Source of the DNA: Acidovorax sp. SRB_14
Lineage (GTDB): Bacteria; Pseudomonadota; Gammaproteobacteria; Burkholderiales; Burkholderiaceae_C
Direction of reading: 5' to 3'
Assembly (NCBI RefSeq): GCF_012932145.1
Contig: NZ_MWOK01000003.1
Coordinates: 62,001 to 126,000 of the forward strand
DNA: 64,000 bases
Positions 19,337 through 25,982 of the stretch are shown piece by piece. A model generated the notes under the pieces. It searched no databases. It was not told the DNA's origin and saw only the letters and a program-made list of their open reading frames with translations. The position numbers and the translations under genes are program-made. The stretch's first letter is position 1; each line of letters opens with the position of its first letter.

Positions 19337-20200
19337 ATGGCCCTGGAAATTGTATTGATCACCGGAATGTCGGGGTCGGGAAAATCCGTCGCCTTGCGTG
19401 CATTGGAAGATGCCGGCTACTACTGCGTTGACAACCTGCCTCCCGAGCTGCTTTCCTCCTTTGTAGCACTGGAACCGCAGCACCATGGCAACCGCGTTGC
19501 CATCGCCATGGATGTGCGCAGCGCCACTTCACTGCCACAAGTCCCACAAGAGTTGGCTCGCCTGCGCAGCCAGGGCGTCAAAGTTCATTCCCTGTTTCTG
19601 GATGCCACCACGGACACTCTGGTGCGGCGTTTTTCAGAAACACGGCGCCGCCACCCGCTATCCCATGATGAGCTCAAGAACGCGCCCCGCGCCCTGATGC
19701 AGGTGATTGACGAAGAGCGGGAGTTGCTCGCGGACCTGCGGGAGCAGGCGCATGTGATTGACACCAGCACGATCCGCGCCTCCCAATTGCAGGGCTATGT
19801 CAAGGACCTTATTTCCACGCCACCCGAGCAGCTCACGTTGGTATTTCAGTCGTTCGCTTTTAAACGTGGCATTCCTGTGGATGCGGATTATGTCTTTGAC
19901 GTGCGCATGCTTCCCAACCCACATTACGAGCCTGCGCTGAGAGAACTGACTGGCCTGGACAAACCGGTGGCGGACTTTCTAAGCCAGCAGCCTGCAGTGG
20001 CAGAGATGCGCCTGCACATAGAAAACTTCCTTGGGCACTGGTTGGACTTTTTGGCGAAAAACCACCGCAGCTATGTCACAGTCGCCATTGGCTGCACGGG
20101 GGGCCAGCACCGGTCTGTTTATTTGGTGGAGCGCCTGGCGGAAACCTTCAAGGCACAGTGGACGACCTTGCAGCGCCACCGTGAGCTCGATGCGCGCTGA
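19337..20200 (+). CDS. rapZ: RNase adapter protein RapZ (YvcJ family)
   Basis: A 287-residue P-loop nucleotide-binding protein. Walker A is [11 protein letters not shown] at the N-terminus, followed by [13 protein letters not shown]. The conserved C-terminal part includes [39 protein letters not shown] and [21 protein letters not shown]. In enterobacteria RapZ guides RNase E to small RNAs for glucosamine-6-phosphate control; in other groups the role is less clear. It starts 3 bp after recN ends. Confidence 0.93.
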
Positions 20201-20235
20201 CACCACGGCAAACACACACCCATCACCGCTTCCTC

Positions 20236-21279
20236 TCAGATGCGCTCCAGCAGCTTGCGAATAGGAGCTGGCAATCCCAGATCCTTCCACTGCGCAGGGT
20301 TGAACCATGCGCCTTCACTGCCCTGCCAGTCTGAAGCCGCAGGATGCACCTGCACTGTATGCAGATGCAAATCCCTGTGGGTCAGCACATGCACAAACAC
20401 AGGCCACTCAGAGACGGAGACTGCGGCACCAAACGCAGGATGCTCCATCAAAGCGGCACTTTGTTCGTACACCGGCAAGCAATGCAGTCCAGCCCAGATT
20501 CCGGTCGGGGGGCGCCTCTGCAAATGCACGCGTCCCACGCCATCACGCAGCAACAGCAACCACCAAGACACAGACTTGCGCACTAGTTTGCGGGACTTCA
20601 CTGGATAACGTGCGGGATCACCCTGCCTAAAAGCAATGCATTGCTGTGCAAGTGGACACTGCGTGCACAAGGGTCTGCGCGGTAGGCACACCGTGGCCCC
20701 CAAATCCATCAAGCCCTGTGTGTAACGCGGCATGGTGACAGGCAAATCGGTGCGCGGCAGCAAGATTTCCGCTTGGCCCCACAAGGCGCGTTCGTTGGCG
20801 GCCACCGCCAGATCGGCCTCGAAACCGAGAATGCGCGTCAGCACGCGGCGCACATTCGCATCCAAGATTGGCACACGTTCTGCAAAGCAAAACGCGGCAA
20901 TCGCTCCAGCCGTAGAGCGCCCAATCCCAGGCAGCGTTTGCAGCAACTGCGCGCTGCCAGGAAAAACGCCGCCATGCAGCGCCATCACTTGCTGGGCACA
21001 GCGATGCAAATTGCGGGCTCGGCTGTAGTACCCCAATCCACTCCAGAGCGACAGCACCTCATCTTCAGAAGCCATGGCAAGCGCACGCACATCCGGGAAC
21101 CGTTCCAAAAAACGGGCGTAGTAGTCCAATACCGTGCTCACCTGGGTTTGCTGCAGCATGACTTCCGACAGCCACACCCGGTAAGGATCGCGCGTTTGCT
21201 GCCACGGCAAATGGTTGCGCCCGTGGTCTTCCTGCCAGCGCACCGTCAGCGCGGCTATCGTCTGTGGCATGTCCCTCAT
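20236..21279 (-). CDS. mutY: A/G-specific adenine glycosylase MutY
   Basis: A 347-residue base-excision enzyme removing adenine opposite 8-oxoguanine. The catalytic N-terminus includes LPWQQTRDPYRVWLSEVMLQQTQV with the active-site Glu; the helix-hairpin-helix LPGIGRSTAGAIAAF and catalytic Asp in VPILDANVRRVLTRILG follow. The [4Fe-4S] ligands are in CLPRRPLCTQCPLAQQC. The C-terminal NUDIX-like domain that recognises 8-oxoG is present. The ATG overlaps the TGA of the dynamin-like gene by 4 bp, coupling its translation to that GTPase. Confidence 0.95.
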   Translation of the reverse strand: MRDMPQTIAALTVRWQEDHGRNHLPWQQTRDPYRVWLSEVMLQQTQVSTVLDYYARFLERFPDVRALAMASEDEVLSLWSGLGYYSRARNLHRCAQQVMALHGGVFPGSAQLLQTLPGIGRSTAGAIAAFCFAERVPILDANVRRVLTRILGFEADLAVAANERALWGQAEILLPRTDLPVTMPRYTQGLMDLGATVCLPRRPLCTQCPLAQQCIAFRQGDPARYPVKSRKLVRKSVSWWLLLLRDGVGRVHLQRRPPTGIWAGLHCLPVYEQSAALMEHPAFGAAVSVSEWPVFVHVLTHRDLHLHTVQVHPAASDWQGSEGAWFNPAQWKDLGLPAPIRKLLERI

Positions 21280-23345
21280 ACCGCTTGCAATCCCAACGCC
21301 GGGGTAGCGCCGTGCCCGGCAGACAAGCGCATCAATTCGCCAGTAAGTTCTTCGAGTCGCTGCTCGATCTGCACCAATGCCAATTCATTGCCCTCAATCT
21401 CTGTAATGCGTTCCACCAAGCCACTGGCGGCATGCTGTATGCGGTCCACAGCTTCGATGCGTCGCACGAAACTGCGCTGGCGCTCACGCAGCTGCACATT
21501 CAGAGGGGCCGTGGCCGAGTTGCTCCAGAGTTCCAATTCGTTGGCGACCGATTCCAACAATGCTCGCAGGCGCAGCGCCAATGCGCGCCCCAAGCGCGCC
21601 GAAAACTCGGGCCGAGCCATCTTGAGCGCATTGCCCATGCTCAGGTACTGCATATGGCTGTGTTCGACGCGCGCCAGATCCGCGACAAACTGTGCAAATT
21701 GCGGCGCAGCAGCCACCTGCAGAGAAAAACCAAACTCCGCATTGAGTTGCCGAAATGTCCCGCCGAGCATGGCCTGAATTTCCGCCGCAGCTGCCTCTGC
21801 CGCAGTGAGGGTGCCACGCAAACGCTCAAACAACTGTGTGTAATGTGTGCGAATACCCAGCTTTAATCCACTGTGCTGCAACGATGCATTCAGCTCTTGC
21901 ATATGCACCTTCAAGGTTTTTGCGCCGAGGTTGTCAAAAACGGCACCCAGCAGTTTCAGGTGCACGGCCCGAACCGCATGGATCTTGGTGGCACTCAACT
22001 CGAATTCGCGTTGCTCCTGCTCAATGCGCTGGCGCATCGACGCAATCACCGAAGCGTTCTTGCCACGCAGGCTGCGCAACTCCAGCATCTGGTCATCCAG
22101 ATCACGCCTGCGAATATGGACTGCACGCGCAGCTTGATTGCGCAAACCTGCCACCCCATCGGCGATGGCGGCGCGCAAAATCGCTTGACGCCCACCCACA
22201 ATGCCGTCGGCCAACGCAGCTTCCAGGACCGGCAAACCACTCGCAGCCAACAAAGCGCTATCGCCAGAGATCTTGGCCACCAGACCTTTTTGCGCAGAGA
22301 CCGACACAACCTGTTCTGGATGCACACCCAGCAATTGCGCAGATGTGGCGCACTGGCGCTCCAGTTGCGACTGCACCTGCTCAGACGAACTGAGCGTGTC
22401 CCAGAGGGTGTCAATTTTGTTGAGCACCACCAGGCGCGATTCTTTGCCGCCATGCGCAGAAGTCAGATGTTCCCGCCAGATGGACAGATCCGAACGCGTG
22501 ACCCCGGTGTCCGCTCCCAGAATAAAAACCACCGCCTGTGCCTGCGGTATGAGGTTGACTGTGAGCTCGGGCTCCGCGCCCACGGCATTGAGCCCAGGTG
22601 TGTCCAGAATCACCAGGCCTTGTTTGAGCAGGGGGTGCGGCATGTTGATGAGAGCATGCCGCCACATCGGCACTTCAACATATCCCTGGGCGTCCACCAC
22701 AGGATTTTCGCCGGGCAACTCGTCGTGCCAGAACCCCAGAGCCCGTGCCTCATCCACACTGACGTGGCGCACCTGGGCCACTTTCGCCATCGCCTGTGCA
22801 AGTTGATCGGCATCGTGGATGTCCAGCGGAAAATCGACCCATTGCTCGGATCGCATTCGCCACTCCGTCAGGCCTTGCTCCTGCAAACGGGTATCAATCG
22901 GCAGCAAACGCAAACTTGGCGCCAGCGCAGAGTCATAGCCCAGCTCGGTCGGGCACATGGTGGTTCTGCCGGCACTGGCTGGCATGATGCGGCGGCCAAA
23001 ATCCGCAAAAAAAAGGGCGTTGATCAGTTCTGACTTGCCACGCGAGACCTCGGCGACAAAAGCCACCGTGATCTTGTCGGTTCGCACCTGGTCTTGCAGC
23101 CGTTGCAAACGCTCACGCATCGCGGACTCCATGAGGTCGTGCGACGTCATCCATTCGGCCAGCCGCGTCAATTGCTGGGCAAATTCGCGCCGCCAAGATC
23201 CATGCTGCTCGAACTGTTCGTTGAATGAGGATCCCACGCTGCTCCCGGAATTCAGTGTCTGGTCCAGGGACCGACTGCCTAAAAATACACCACCGTGGTC
23301 TCGGCGCCATGCGTCCGCGGCTGGCGCAACGCGGTGGCCTTTCAT
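21276..23345 (-). CDS. Dynamin-like large GTPase
   Basis: A 689-residue bacterial dynamin-family protein. GTPase motifs: P-loop AEVSRGKSE (98-106, with Ala replacing the usual first Gly), switch threonines in [12 protein letters not shown] near 128, DTPG (248-251) and NKID (309-312). A helical C-terminal half with coiled-coil-like runs follows. No transmembrane segment is evident. The ATG at 23345 was chosen because it overlaps the mutM stop by 4 bp; its own stop overlaps the mutY start likewise. Related GTPases are linked to membrane remodelling or chromosome maintenance; the role here is unknown. Confidence 0.82.
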
Positions 23346-24157
23346 GCGCGCTGGCATTTCGGACAATAGAAACTGCTGCGCTGTCCCTGGCGCAGCATGC
23401 GCACGGGCGTCGTGCAAGTATGACAGGGCATTCCTTCACGGGCATAGACACGCGCCTGCAACTGGAAATGGCCCGTCTGACCATCGGCGCTGGAAAAATC
23501 TCGCAAGGTACTGCCCCCTGCGTCCACCGCGGCGTGCAGGACTTGCCGAATGGCGTCGTACAACCTTTGCGCTCTCTTCGGGCCAATGTGCATTGCCGAG
23601 GTCGTCGGGCGAATTCCCGCCATGAACAGCACTTCGGAAGCATAGATATTGCCCACGCCCACTACCAGCTTTCCTGCCAGCAAAACCTGCTTGACAGGAG
23701 CGCGAGCGGCTTTCAAACCCGCCTTGAAACGTTCCAGCGAAAATCCATCCGAGAGTGGCTCCATGCCCAGCCCACTCAGCAGTTTGATGACCACCGCATC
23801 CTGCTCGCTTCCGGCATACACCACTGCGCCAAACCTGCGTGGATCGTGCAATCGAAGCACGCCATGCGTGGTGAACAGTTCAAAGTGGTCATGCACGCCC
23901 CGCGCGGGCAAGGTCTGGGCGAATCCGAGACTGCCAGACATGCCCAGATGGAGCAACAGCATGCCCTCGTCAAGGTCCAGAAGCAAATACTTGCCTCGCC
24001 TGCGCACGCCCATCACCCGGCGTCCCTGCAACCGCTGGGCGTCAATTCCCAGGGGCCAGCGCAGCGGCTTTCCCGTCTCGACCGAGAGGATTCGCCCCCC
24101 CGCGATGGCGGCGGCAAAACTGCGGCGTGTCACTTCCACTTCTGGCAGTTCAGGCAT
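23342..24157 (-). CDS. mutM: Formamidopyrimidine-DNA glycosylase MutM (Fpg)
   Basis: A 271-residue bifunctional glycosylase/AP lyase removing 8-oxoguanine opposite cytosine. The N-terminal catalytic [11 protein letters not shown] is intact after Met removal. The helix-two-turn-helix region contains [19 protein letters not shown], and the C-terminal zinc finger has CHTC with YCPKC. The start is the ATG giving MPELPE, two codons below a first Met. It heads an operon with the dynamin-like GTPase and mutY, so both arms of the GO repair system are co-expressed. Confidence 0.96.
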
Positions 24158-24188
24158 CAACAATCACTTCAAAACAAGGGGCATATGC

Positions 24189-25982
24189 ATGGATTATTAT
24201 GGCTTGATGGTCCATACACATCGCCTTCTGATGGCCGCCTTGGCCGCCGCTCTGTTGACCGGAACAATGGCAGTGGTGGCGCAACCCGTTGCCGCCAAAG
24301 GCAACGCCCAGCGCGGCGCCACGGCCGCCAAAACCGCTGAAACAGAGTCCAACGCAGCCCTCGATGCCGAACTTTTCTACGAAGTGCTGCTGGGCGAGAT
24401 GACAATCCAGTCTGGCGACCCTGGATCTGGCTACGCCCTCATGCTGGAAGCAGCCCGCCGCAGCAACGACGAAAAACTCTACAGGCGGGCGGCCGATATT
24501 GCCTTGCAAGCGCGTTCTGGCGATGCCGCATTGCAGGCTGCCAATGCCTGGAAGGAGGCTCGGCCGCAATCGCGCGATGCCAACCGGTATGTGCTGCAGA
24601 TTCTGGTTGCTCTCAACCGAGTTGCCGACAGTGCCGGCCCTCTGAAGCAGGAACTGGCGCAAACCGCGGTGCAAGCCAAGGCTGCCAGCTTTCAGGCACT
24701 GCCACAAATATACCGCCGTGTCAGCGACAAGACACTCGCTGCCGCCGTGGTGGAACAGGCGCTCGCGGAAGATCTGGCCAGCCCCACCACGGGAGCTGCA
24801 GCCTGGACCGCTGTGGGACGCATGCGCTTGCTGGCGAACGACAAAGCGGGCGCACTCGATGCGGCGCAACGCGCGCAGCAGCTTGACCCCATCAGCGACG
24901 GCCCGGCGCTCCTGGCGCTGGAGCTTTTGGACGCACGCACTGCGCAAGCCGATGCTGTCGCAGCGCGCTACTTTGCCGGCAAGCCTTCGCCCGCTCTGCG
25001 TGCGGCTTACGCACGCGTACTGGTCAACCAGCAACGCAACGAAGACTCTCTCCAGCAATTGCAGGCAGCGACAAGCGAGAAGCCAGACTTTGCCGAAGCT
25101 TGGCTCATGCAGGCTGCGCTGCAGTTCCAGCTGAAGCAACTGGCGCAGGCACAAAAATCCTTGGAGCAGTTTGAAGCCCTGGCCCAGGCAGTCCCCGAGG
25201 GCGACGCACGCCGCGCCGGTTTGTCCCAGGCCTATTTGCTGCATGCGCAGATTGCTGAGCGGCGCGGTGACTACGAAGCGGCAGACGCCTGGCTCAACCG
25301 CATCGACAGTCCACAGGATATGTTCAGCGCGCAGAGTCAGCGCGCTTTTCTGCTGGGACGCCAAGGCAAACTGGCCCAGGCCCGGGCGCTCCTTCAAAGC
25401 CTGCCCGTCGCCGGGCCTGACGACGAACGCATGAAACTGCTGGCCGAAGTGCAGTTGCTGCGAGACGCCGGCCAATACCGCGAAGCCTATGCCTTGCAAG
25501 GCAAAGCGGTTGCACAGTTTCCTGACGACAACGAACTGCTCTACGACCATGCCATGCTGGCGGACAAAGCCGGCCAACCAGAAGCCATGGAGCGCCTGCT
25601 GCGCCAGCTGATGGCCCGCCAGCCCGATTACCACCACGCCTACAACGCGCTGGGTTACTCGTTGGCCGAGCGCGGAATCCGGCTCGAAGAAGCCAAGGAG
25701 CTGATCCAGAAAGCGTTGGAATTTGCACCCCAAGATCCTTTCATTACGGACAGCCTGGGCTGGGTGGAATTCCGCCTTGGAAACCGCACCGAGGCCGCCC
25801 GGTTGCTGAACCTGGCTTTCAAGAGTCGCCCCGATGCAGAAATTGCCGCCCATCTTGGCGAAGTCTTGTGGAGCCTGGGCGACAAAGAGCAGGCACGTTC
25901 GATCTGGAAGCAGGGCCAGCAGCTCAACGCCGACAACGACACACTGCGTGAAACCCTCAAGCGCCTGGGCGCTGGGCTGTGA
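24189..25982 (+). CDS. TPR-repeat protein with signal peptide
   Basis: A protein of about 597 residues with an N-terminal hydrophobic segment (LLMAALAAALLTGTMAVVAQ) that looks like a signal peptide, followed by helical tetratricopeptide repeats to the end. Late repeats are clear: NALGYSLAERGIRLEEAKELIQKALEFAPQDPFITDSLGWVEFRLGN. It is probably periplasmic or outer-membrane-associated. It is followed by lolB (overlapping TGATG), which suggests an envelope role. The start is uncertain: 24189 leaves 31 bp to mutM, and ATGs at 24207 or 24225 also fit the signal peptide. Confidence 0.8.
   Translation: MDYYGLMVHTHRLLMAALAAALLTGTMAVVAQPVAAKGNAQRGATAAKTAETESNAALDAELFYEVLLGEMTIQSGDPGSGYALMLEAARRSNDEKLYRRAADIALQARSGDAALQAANAWKEARPQSRDANRYVLQILVALNRVADSAGPLKQELAQTAVQAKAASFQALPQIYRRVSDKTLAAAVVEQALAEDLASPTTGAAAWTAVGRMRLLANDKAGALDAAQRAQQLDPISDGPALLALELLDARTAQADAVAARYFAGKPSPALRAAYARVLVNQQRNEDSLQQLQAATSEKPDFAEAWLMQAALQFQLKQLAQAQKSLEQFEALAQAVPEGDARRAGLSQAYLLHAQIAERRGDYEAADAWLNRIDSPQDMFSAQSQRAFLLGRQGKLAQARALLQSLPVAGPDDERMKLLAEVQLLRDAGQYREAYALQGKAVAQFPDDNELLYDHAMLADKAGQPEAMERLLRQLMARQPDYHHAYNALGYSLAERGIRLEEAKELIQKALEFAPQDPFITDSLGWVEFRLGNRTEAARLLNLAFKSRPDAEIAAHLGEVLWSLGDKEQARSIWKQGQQLNADNDTLRETLKRLGAGL

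Follow-up and report, generated by a model that had tools for sequence, protein, structure and literature searches.

The gene that lies between mutM and mutY in Acidovorax sp. SRB_14 encodes a dynamin-like guanosine triphosphatase (GTPase) which, judged from its sequence and predicted fold, belongs to the BDLP/mitofusin type of dynamin and is a bacterial member of it. We examined it in a stretch of 64,000 nucleotides (contig NZ_MWOK01000003.1, positions 62,001 to 126,000), referred to here as the window. We propose, with a confidence that we put at about even, that the protein is a homo-oligomeric dynamin of envelope maintenance and that history and regulation tie it to the two glycosylase genes. 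The GTPase is probably a neighbour of a repair gene and not a part of the repair machine, because it seems to have a promoter of its own and has apparently been lost many times. A first-pass annotation of this DNA had read the three genes as overlapping at both junctions and as made in step, and had suggested a functional link between the GTPase and the repair of 8-oxoguanine by MutM and MutY. The comparison with relatives supports neither joint expression of all three genes nor that link.

Layout of the locus and start of the GTPase gene

The three genes are co-directional and contiguous on the minus strand, in the order mutM (23342–24157, 271 amino acids), the Dynamin_N protein and mutY (20236–21279, 347 amino acids). 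MutM and MutY of the window both score above NCBIfam equivalog cut-offs, as formamidopyrimidine-DNA glycosylase (NF002211, 307 bits against a cut-off of 212) and A/G-specific adenine glycosylase (TIGR01084, 329.6 bits against 286.5) respectively. The gene identities and the gene order first given for the locus both stand. The string ATGA is present at both junctions in the window, as had been reported, and had been taken as an overlap in each case. At the GTPase/mutY junction (21276–21279) this reading is borne out, as a start codon lies at -4 in 61 of 109 loci and is ATG in 46 of these. It fails at the mutM/GTPase junction. There, in-frame starts were listed between the mutM stop codon and residue 50 of the GTPase (residues are numbered throughout on the 689-residue form of the earlier annotation), and 110 of 114 loci were usable. 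An in-frame stop codon lies between the ATGA point and a conserved downstream start in 87 of the 110 loci, which makes the long N-terminus impossible in these, and only three, among them the window, have a start codon at -4. Of the 110 loci, 108 offer a start at a position that corresponds to residues 33–44, mostly GTG, with TTG or ATG in others. Its counterpart in the window is GTG 23237, with a Shine–Dalgarno-like GGGAG (23242–23246) directly 5' of it. Residues 1–36 of the long form are unconserved in the alignment and modelled at low confidence, the predicted local distance difference test (pLDDT) having block means of 36 to 53 over residues 1–40.

We conclude that the ATGA at the mutM stop codon is very probably a false start. 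The coding sequence would then run from GTG 23237 to 21276, encoding 653 residues, and not from ATG 23345 with the 689 residues first assigned. It would be preceded by an intergenic stretch of 104 bp (23238–23341), the median gap to the conserved start being 86 bp over the 110 loci. A single three-gene translational unit was rejected, as the first junction is very probably without overlap and the gap holds a promoter-like element in most relatives. Locus counts in this survey and in the promoter survey below are not counts of independent genomes, as one organism may appear twice (e.g. L114/L238).

Distribution and conservation of the gene order

The GTPase was found in 112 of 150 genomes of the family (Burkholderiaceae_C), in 102 of 200 of the order (Burkholderiales), in 63 of 232 of the class (profile search) and in 19 of 199 of the phylum, every one of which belongs to the class. 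The loci taken from the order, family and class searches were the best-scoring matches, at most 30 from each; of the 58 that came from the order and family, 57 have mutM directly upstream on the same strand. When mutM and mutY were located in the same 150 family genomes, 106 of the 112 GTPase-bearing genomes had mutM as the upstream neighbour of the GTPase, 109 had mutY as its downstream neighbour, and 103 had the two together. In this count the pieces of a split GTPase gene in G202 and in G245 were each taken as one span, and minor second matches in G261, G306, G332 and G278 were omitted. Judged from these sequences, the linkage of the three genes within the family is far more than chance would give, and the gene order, whose conservation the first-pass annotation had proposed to survey, extends far beyond one strain.

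Nine genomes depart from the triplet: mutY is on another contig in three, one has no mutM match, and in five mutM is elsewhere (on another contig in four and 587 kb away in one). In two of the exceptions, G278 and G306, a contig break falls within the GTPase gene, and the expected gene adjoins each piece. Apparent real moves of mutM are seen in G231, G297, G275 and G279, and the GTPase remains with mutY in all four. In a further set of loci from named genomes, the best 80 of at least 591 confirmed, all three genes are present in 77, and in the other three the match extends to the edge of the record where the missing gene would be expected; those assignable to a genus are close relatives of the window. 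No description of a mutM- or mutY-linked dynamin was found in the open-licence literature among the matches listed (PMC11237479 does not mention a dynamin), which, because of that scope, is weak evidence of novelty.

Absence and loss of the GTPase

Thirty-eight of the family genomes are without the GTPase. In 37 of these mutM is followed directly by mutY, and the other has the two genes on different contigs. Across the 150 genomes a mutY match is present in all and a mutM match in 149; both genes are kept without the GTPase, and MutM and MutY therefore do not need it. On a tree of MutM and MutY from 92 loci (55 with and 37 without the GTPase, two loci having been dropped for want of mutM), presence and absence of the GTPase change 13 times, with gains and losses not distinguished, and at least seven of these changes are forced by well-supported (starred) branches. 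Because the outlying rows and other families carry the GTPase, we read most of the changes as losses, and it appears that the gene has been lost repeatedly while mutM–mutY stayed. Apparent decay in progress is seen in three genomes: the GTPase gene is split over two frames between mutM and mutY in G202:C1:4277088-4279054 and G245:C1:301760-303684, where a sequencing error is possible, and a C-terminal remnant lies between the two genes in G243:C5:21675-22463.

A promoter-like element between mutM and the GTPase gene

When the mutM–GTPase gaps of near relatives are aligned, an AT-rich island stands out within GC-rich DNA. TGCTATA is present in 82 and TG.TATA.T in 84 of 126 gaps (126 usable of 134 loci), whereas 60 rounds of dinucleotide shuffles gave a mean of 0.8 and a maximum of 3 for the former and a mean of 0.5 and a maximum of 2 for the latter. 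The consensus, (C)GATGCTATATTG also given as TGCTATATT, is that of an extended -10 element; no -35 is conserved and the flanks are unconserved. The 84 matches to TG.TATA.T lie 12–91 nt from the GTPase start, with a single exception at 264. In the 37 loci that lack the GTPase, the stretch from the mutM end to residue 13 of mutY contains none of TG.TATA.T, TGCTATA and TATATT. In other families, 20 mutM-linked loci were readable; a looser pattern, TG.TA...T (the shuffles cover the two stricter ones), is found in the gap of 10 of them, and TATATT in that of one more.

As the conserved GTG start leaves a gap that holds a conserved extended -10 element, the layout deduced from these alignments is probably mutM / promoter / GTPase–mutY. 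The comparison does not support expression of all three genes in lock-step: the first overlap is very probably false, and in most relatives the gap contains this conserved promoter-like element, from which it appears that the GTPase has its own promoter.

The encoded protein

The GTPase matches Pfam Dynamin_N (PF00350) at 54.8 bits against a cut-off of 27 and scores above no NCBIfam cut-off. Era-like GTPases, too, can exceed the Dynamin_N cut-off through a short match at the P-loop, and for this reason the fold weighs more than the score. An AlphaFold2 model (m9be7661983b7, from 52 sequences; pLDDT 86.9, predicted template modelling score 0.77) has a predicted G domain and helical bundles as in BDLP and the mitofusins. 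We take the PDB entries 2j68, 2j69 and 2w6d to be BDLP of Nostoc punctiforme. The best Foldseek match of the model is 2j69 (E = 8.7e-19), and the fold match to 2j68 is full-length, with 527 residues aligned (Z 20.8, root-mean-square deviation (rmsd) 6.4). A search with the family profile recovers BDLP at 5.2e-20, the alignment covering its G domain and a portion of its trunk. The two proteins differ in that they share only about 15% identity, in the first residue of the P-loop, and in residues 477–590 of BDLP, which the family profile leaves unaligned. MFN1, MFN2 and Fzo1 are also among the top structural matches, with Z about 20–22 (5gom, Z 21.4, rmsd 3.7 over 361 residues; 6jfk, Z 21.8, rmsd 12.8 over 378), but these mitofusins are proteins of eukaryotic organelles, whereas the window GTPase family has no transmembrane-like segment. 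Together with the motifs G1–G4, of which G1 is a variant, the profile match and the fold uphold the membership of the dynamin family first assigned to this gene.

The G1 motif, or P-loop, reads AEVSRGKS (residues 98–105; 23031–23054) and conforms to a conserved pattern xxxxRGK[ST]. The Ala in place of the first Gly had been singled out as unusual; it is real, but it is a trait of the whole family and no peculiarity of the window gene, being present in all 52 rows of the alignment and in 141 of 146 sequences (Gly in four, one not read). G103, K104, T128, T129, the G3 motif DTPG (residues 248–251; 22593–22604) and N309, K310 and D312 of the G4 motif NKID (residues 309–312; 22410–22421) are invariant in all 52 rows. 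As the G1–G4 residues are thus invariant apart from the Ala variant of G1, the protein is probably an active GTPase. A putative trunk tip (residues 539–578; 21612–21731) lies between long helices in the secondary structure of the model. It has an amphipathic stretch only, and is possibly the counterpart of the membrane paddle of BDLP. Separately, at locus L070 (G035:C33:17730-19592) a TAG lies inside the GTPase match and the P-loop was not found in the gene call; this copy may be a pseudogene.

The genome of SRB_14 (100% complete, 63 contigs) has a single copy of the GTPase. Its three Dynamin_N matches are this protein, an Era-like GTPase (MMR_HSR1 and KH domain) and MnmE, and because the other two are of these kinds a homo-oligomer is favoured and a hetero-pair seems unlikely. 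A paired dynamin of the type of PDB 5owv/5oxf was rejected for this genome, as there is no second dynamin-like partner among its Dynamin_N matches. In another genome of the same genus, four additional Dynamin_N matches are clustered on a single strand of one contig (G754:C4:157000-160700), perhaps as a LeoABC-type cluster.

Bacterial dynamins with a proposed role were also compared. DynA of Bacillus subtilis shares with the GTPase the character of a bacterial dynamin and has a proposed role in membrane maintenance and integrity, and it delays lysis after phage infection, according to PMC8844932. Membership of the DynA family was rejected (NF052648 DynmDynABac, cut-off 1600 bits, score 20.4), as was membership of the LeoA family (NF041922, 13.8 bits against 325). 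Similarity to LeoA/LeoBC is distant: there are weak matches to the PADLOC profiles LeoBC (4.7e-11, 40.5 bits) and LeoA (6.3e-8), and the LeoA structure 4aur is among the structural matches, but the score is far below the family cut-off and the gene context is different. A dynamin of Pseudomonas AVO110 is described as a LeoA orthologue, likewise in another context, in PMC6344628.

Deeper linkage and a second line of paralogues

Forty larger loci from other families were chosen from the order matches, 20 of them best copies (one per family) and 20 lower-scoring or second copies. Genes of these neighbourhoods were called with a simple open reading frame picker, which missed some, and their names were read from sequence; most of those relied on were checked against Pfam through a representative, and maf, nadD, rlmH, rpoH, ftsX, hrcA and rplY, among others, were named by reading. 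Among the best copies mutM lies upstream of the GTPase in 18 of 20 (not in L068 and L073). In these 18 loci mutM is preceded by a TPR gene (11 loci), a DUF4340/ABC cluster (five) or something else (two), and the GTPase is followed by a ferredoxin gene (eight), mutY (three) or another gene (seven). Loci with mutY beside the mutM–GTPase pair occur in four families of the order (f1, f7, f9 and f31). The second batch has mutM upstream in only two of 20 (L086 and L091); in 17 the GTPase follows pilT/pilU, yggS, proC, yggT and sometimes yggU, and L090 has neither context. At the level of the class, three of 20 loci have a mutM match upstream (L149, L152 and L154), 11 have yggT, yggU or proC, and six have neither.

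A quick tree of the GTPase was built from 83 of 146 unique proteins (the others, more than 68% identical, were dropped) and has 29 weak branches. The labels mutM-linked and yggT-linked need one change on it, with seven rows of other context uncounted. Because the contexts differ and one change suffices, the two lines are, on these sequences, ancient paralogues, each with its own neighbour. The yggS–proC–yggT(–yggU) line of the Gammaproteobacteria (in the GTDB sense) belongs to the same family as the window protein, with about 29–37% identity to it and the same P-loop, but its chromosomal context is different; its yggT, yggU, proC and pilT-type neighbours were checked in L096. A motif at the trunk tip, FCrDxxNxMxEKhF...FY (the alignment equivalent of residues 555–590), is strongly conserved in this line, whereas the mutM-linked line is without it, and the mean majority at the tip is 0.59 in the yggT-linked line (14 rows) against 0.42 in the mutM-linked line (38 rows). 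The motif is a candidate for a functional difference between the two.

One genome of the class, G415, has three copies of the GTPase (L149, L150 and L151), one behind mutM, one near pilT/pilU and one elsewhere. At a yggT-linked locus (L167:8074-12013) the paralogue is followed on the same strand by a metX-like gene (Abhydrolase_1), metW, a DUF4426 gene, a Ham1/RdgB-family gene and a HemN_C/radical-SAM gene.

Discussion

The explanation that we favour is that this GTPase line already lay beside mutM before the families of the order diverged and has been inherited there ever since, as the comparisons of profile, fold, synteny and tree show, and that in the family of the window mutY came to lie behind it. 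The GTPase gene and mutY would now be a unit of two genes that overlap by 4 bases and probably have an extended -10 promoter of their own, and mutM would be a separate or only partly read-through unit. By analogy with its family, the protein is most likely a homo-oligomer that acts at the cytoplasmic membrane, on its inner face, where GTP would drive the G domains to dimerize and the helical trunk to open, so as to tether or stabilize stressed membrane, as has been proposed for DynA in Bacillus. As the promoter and the ribosomes of the GTPase gene would also serve mutY, the gene would be hard to move and at the same time cleanly deletable. The tie to mutM and mutY would then be mainly historical and regulatory, and the repeated clean absence of the GTPase suggests that it is not part of 8-oxoguanine repair.

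Several observations weigh against this proposal. The adjacency of mutM and the GTPase outlives the other neighbours, being kept in 18 of 20 best-copy loci, and mere history explains this less well than does selection for co-expression or joint function. The retention of the GTPase with mutY in the four genomes from which mutM has moved could reflect a functional tie between these two. For the promoter, 44 of the 126 gaps are without TGCTATA, and the window is among them: its own -10 element (TGGTGTATT, 23292–23284 on the minus strand, aligned by eye with the (C)GATGCTATATTG of its relatives) is degenerate, and a consensus promoter scan, which needs a -35 hexamer as well, found no promoter in 20100–24600. 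For a role at the membrane, no transmembrane or strongly hydrophobic segment was found in the 146 sequences, trunk windows reaching at most 1.59 on the Kyte–Doolittle scale.

Another possibility is a functional link to oxidative DNA damage, whether through a nucleoid role like that of CrfC or through membrane repair under the oxidants that make 8-oxoguanine, with selection keeping the GTPase co-expressed with MutM and MutY. We hold this to be unlikely, although much of the deeper comparison would fit it: mutM is retained in the best-copy loci of other families while the flanks differ, the mutM- and yggT-linked lines split by one change on the tree, and mutY joins the pair in four families. That the link to mutM has persisted while its flanks changed makes a functional tie of some kind possible. 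There is also a precedent in CrfC of Escherichia coli, described in PMC6374313 as a dynamin-like protein that binds the beta clamp through the motif 41-QLALP; like the GTPase studied here, as far as the sequence of the latter shows, it is without a typical membrane motif, and it provides a bacterial dynamin with a link to DNA. A clamp binder of this type was rejected for the window family, as a pentapeptide Q[LIM]x[LIM][FLPV] (our own pattern) occurs in at most four of 52 rows at any column. A Ham1/RdgB-family nucleotide-pool gene lies four genes 3' of the yggT-linked paralogue on the same strand, but at one locus (L167) and with the metX-like gene, metW and the DUF4426 gene between them. Further points against the link are the apparent possession by the GTPase of its own, not a shared, promoter, and the repeated absence of the GTPase while both glycosylases stay. 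With 13 changes of presence and absence, read mostly as losses, a paralogue that resides at yggT/proC and no conserved clamp motif of the CrfC type, the functional tie to 8-oxoguanine repair drawn in the first-pass annotation is not supported. A broader version, which we rate as about equally unlikely, would have an ancient dynamin co-selected with base excision repair, its expression and place tied to MutM and later to MutY, so that membrane or nucleoid remodelling would be part of the response to oxidized DNA and envelope and the paralogue would do the same work at yggT/proC/(rdgB).

Also unlikely, and slightly more so, is pure hitch-hiking, in which a housekeeping GTPase sits beside mutM without meaning and slow rearrangement explains the synteny. 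A wider stretch (a TPR gene, lolB, ispE, prs, rapZ and recN, the window copies of which were checked against Pfam) recurs in many of the 20 loci drawn as one per family, and low rearrangement is therefore the background. However, both flanks of the mutM–GTPase pair vary among the 18 mutM-linked loci of other families, and co-inheritance is deep, with one change on the tree. That the gene encodes a dynamin of phage defence, like LeoABC or DynA, in a fixed chromosomal place is highly improbable: the PADLOC matches, the delay of lysis by DynA (PMC8844932) and the patchy presence of the gene would fit it, but inheritance is vertical in one housekeeping locus, the NCBIfam LeoA score is far too low, and no defence genes were recognized in the neighbourhoods drawn, where many open reading frames were not searched.

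The homo-oligomeric envelope-maintenance dynamin, tied to mutM and mutY by history and regulation, is thus the reading that we carry forward. The locus also provides a more general lesson, in that one ATGA can mislead as evidence of translational coupling. To our knowledge, the function is known for only a small number of bacterial dynamins, and this is especially so in Gram-negative species. What is described here is a widespread and chromosomally fixed dynamin line with a signature P-loop, a stable mutM neighbour and a promoter-like element, and 38 of 150 family genomes are natural absences; with such absences and such stable features of the locus, its function is directly testable.

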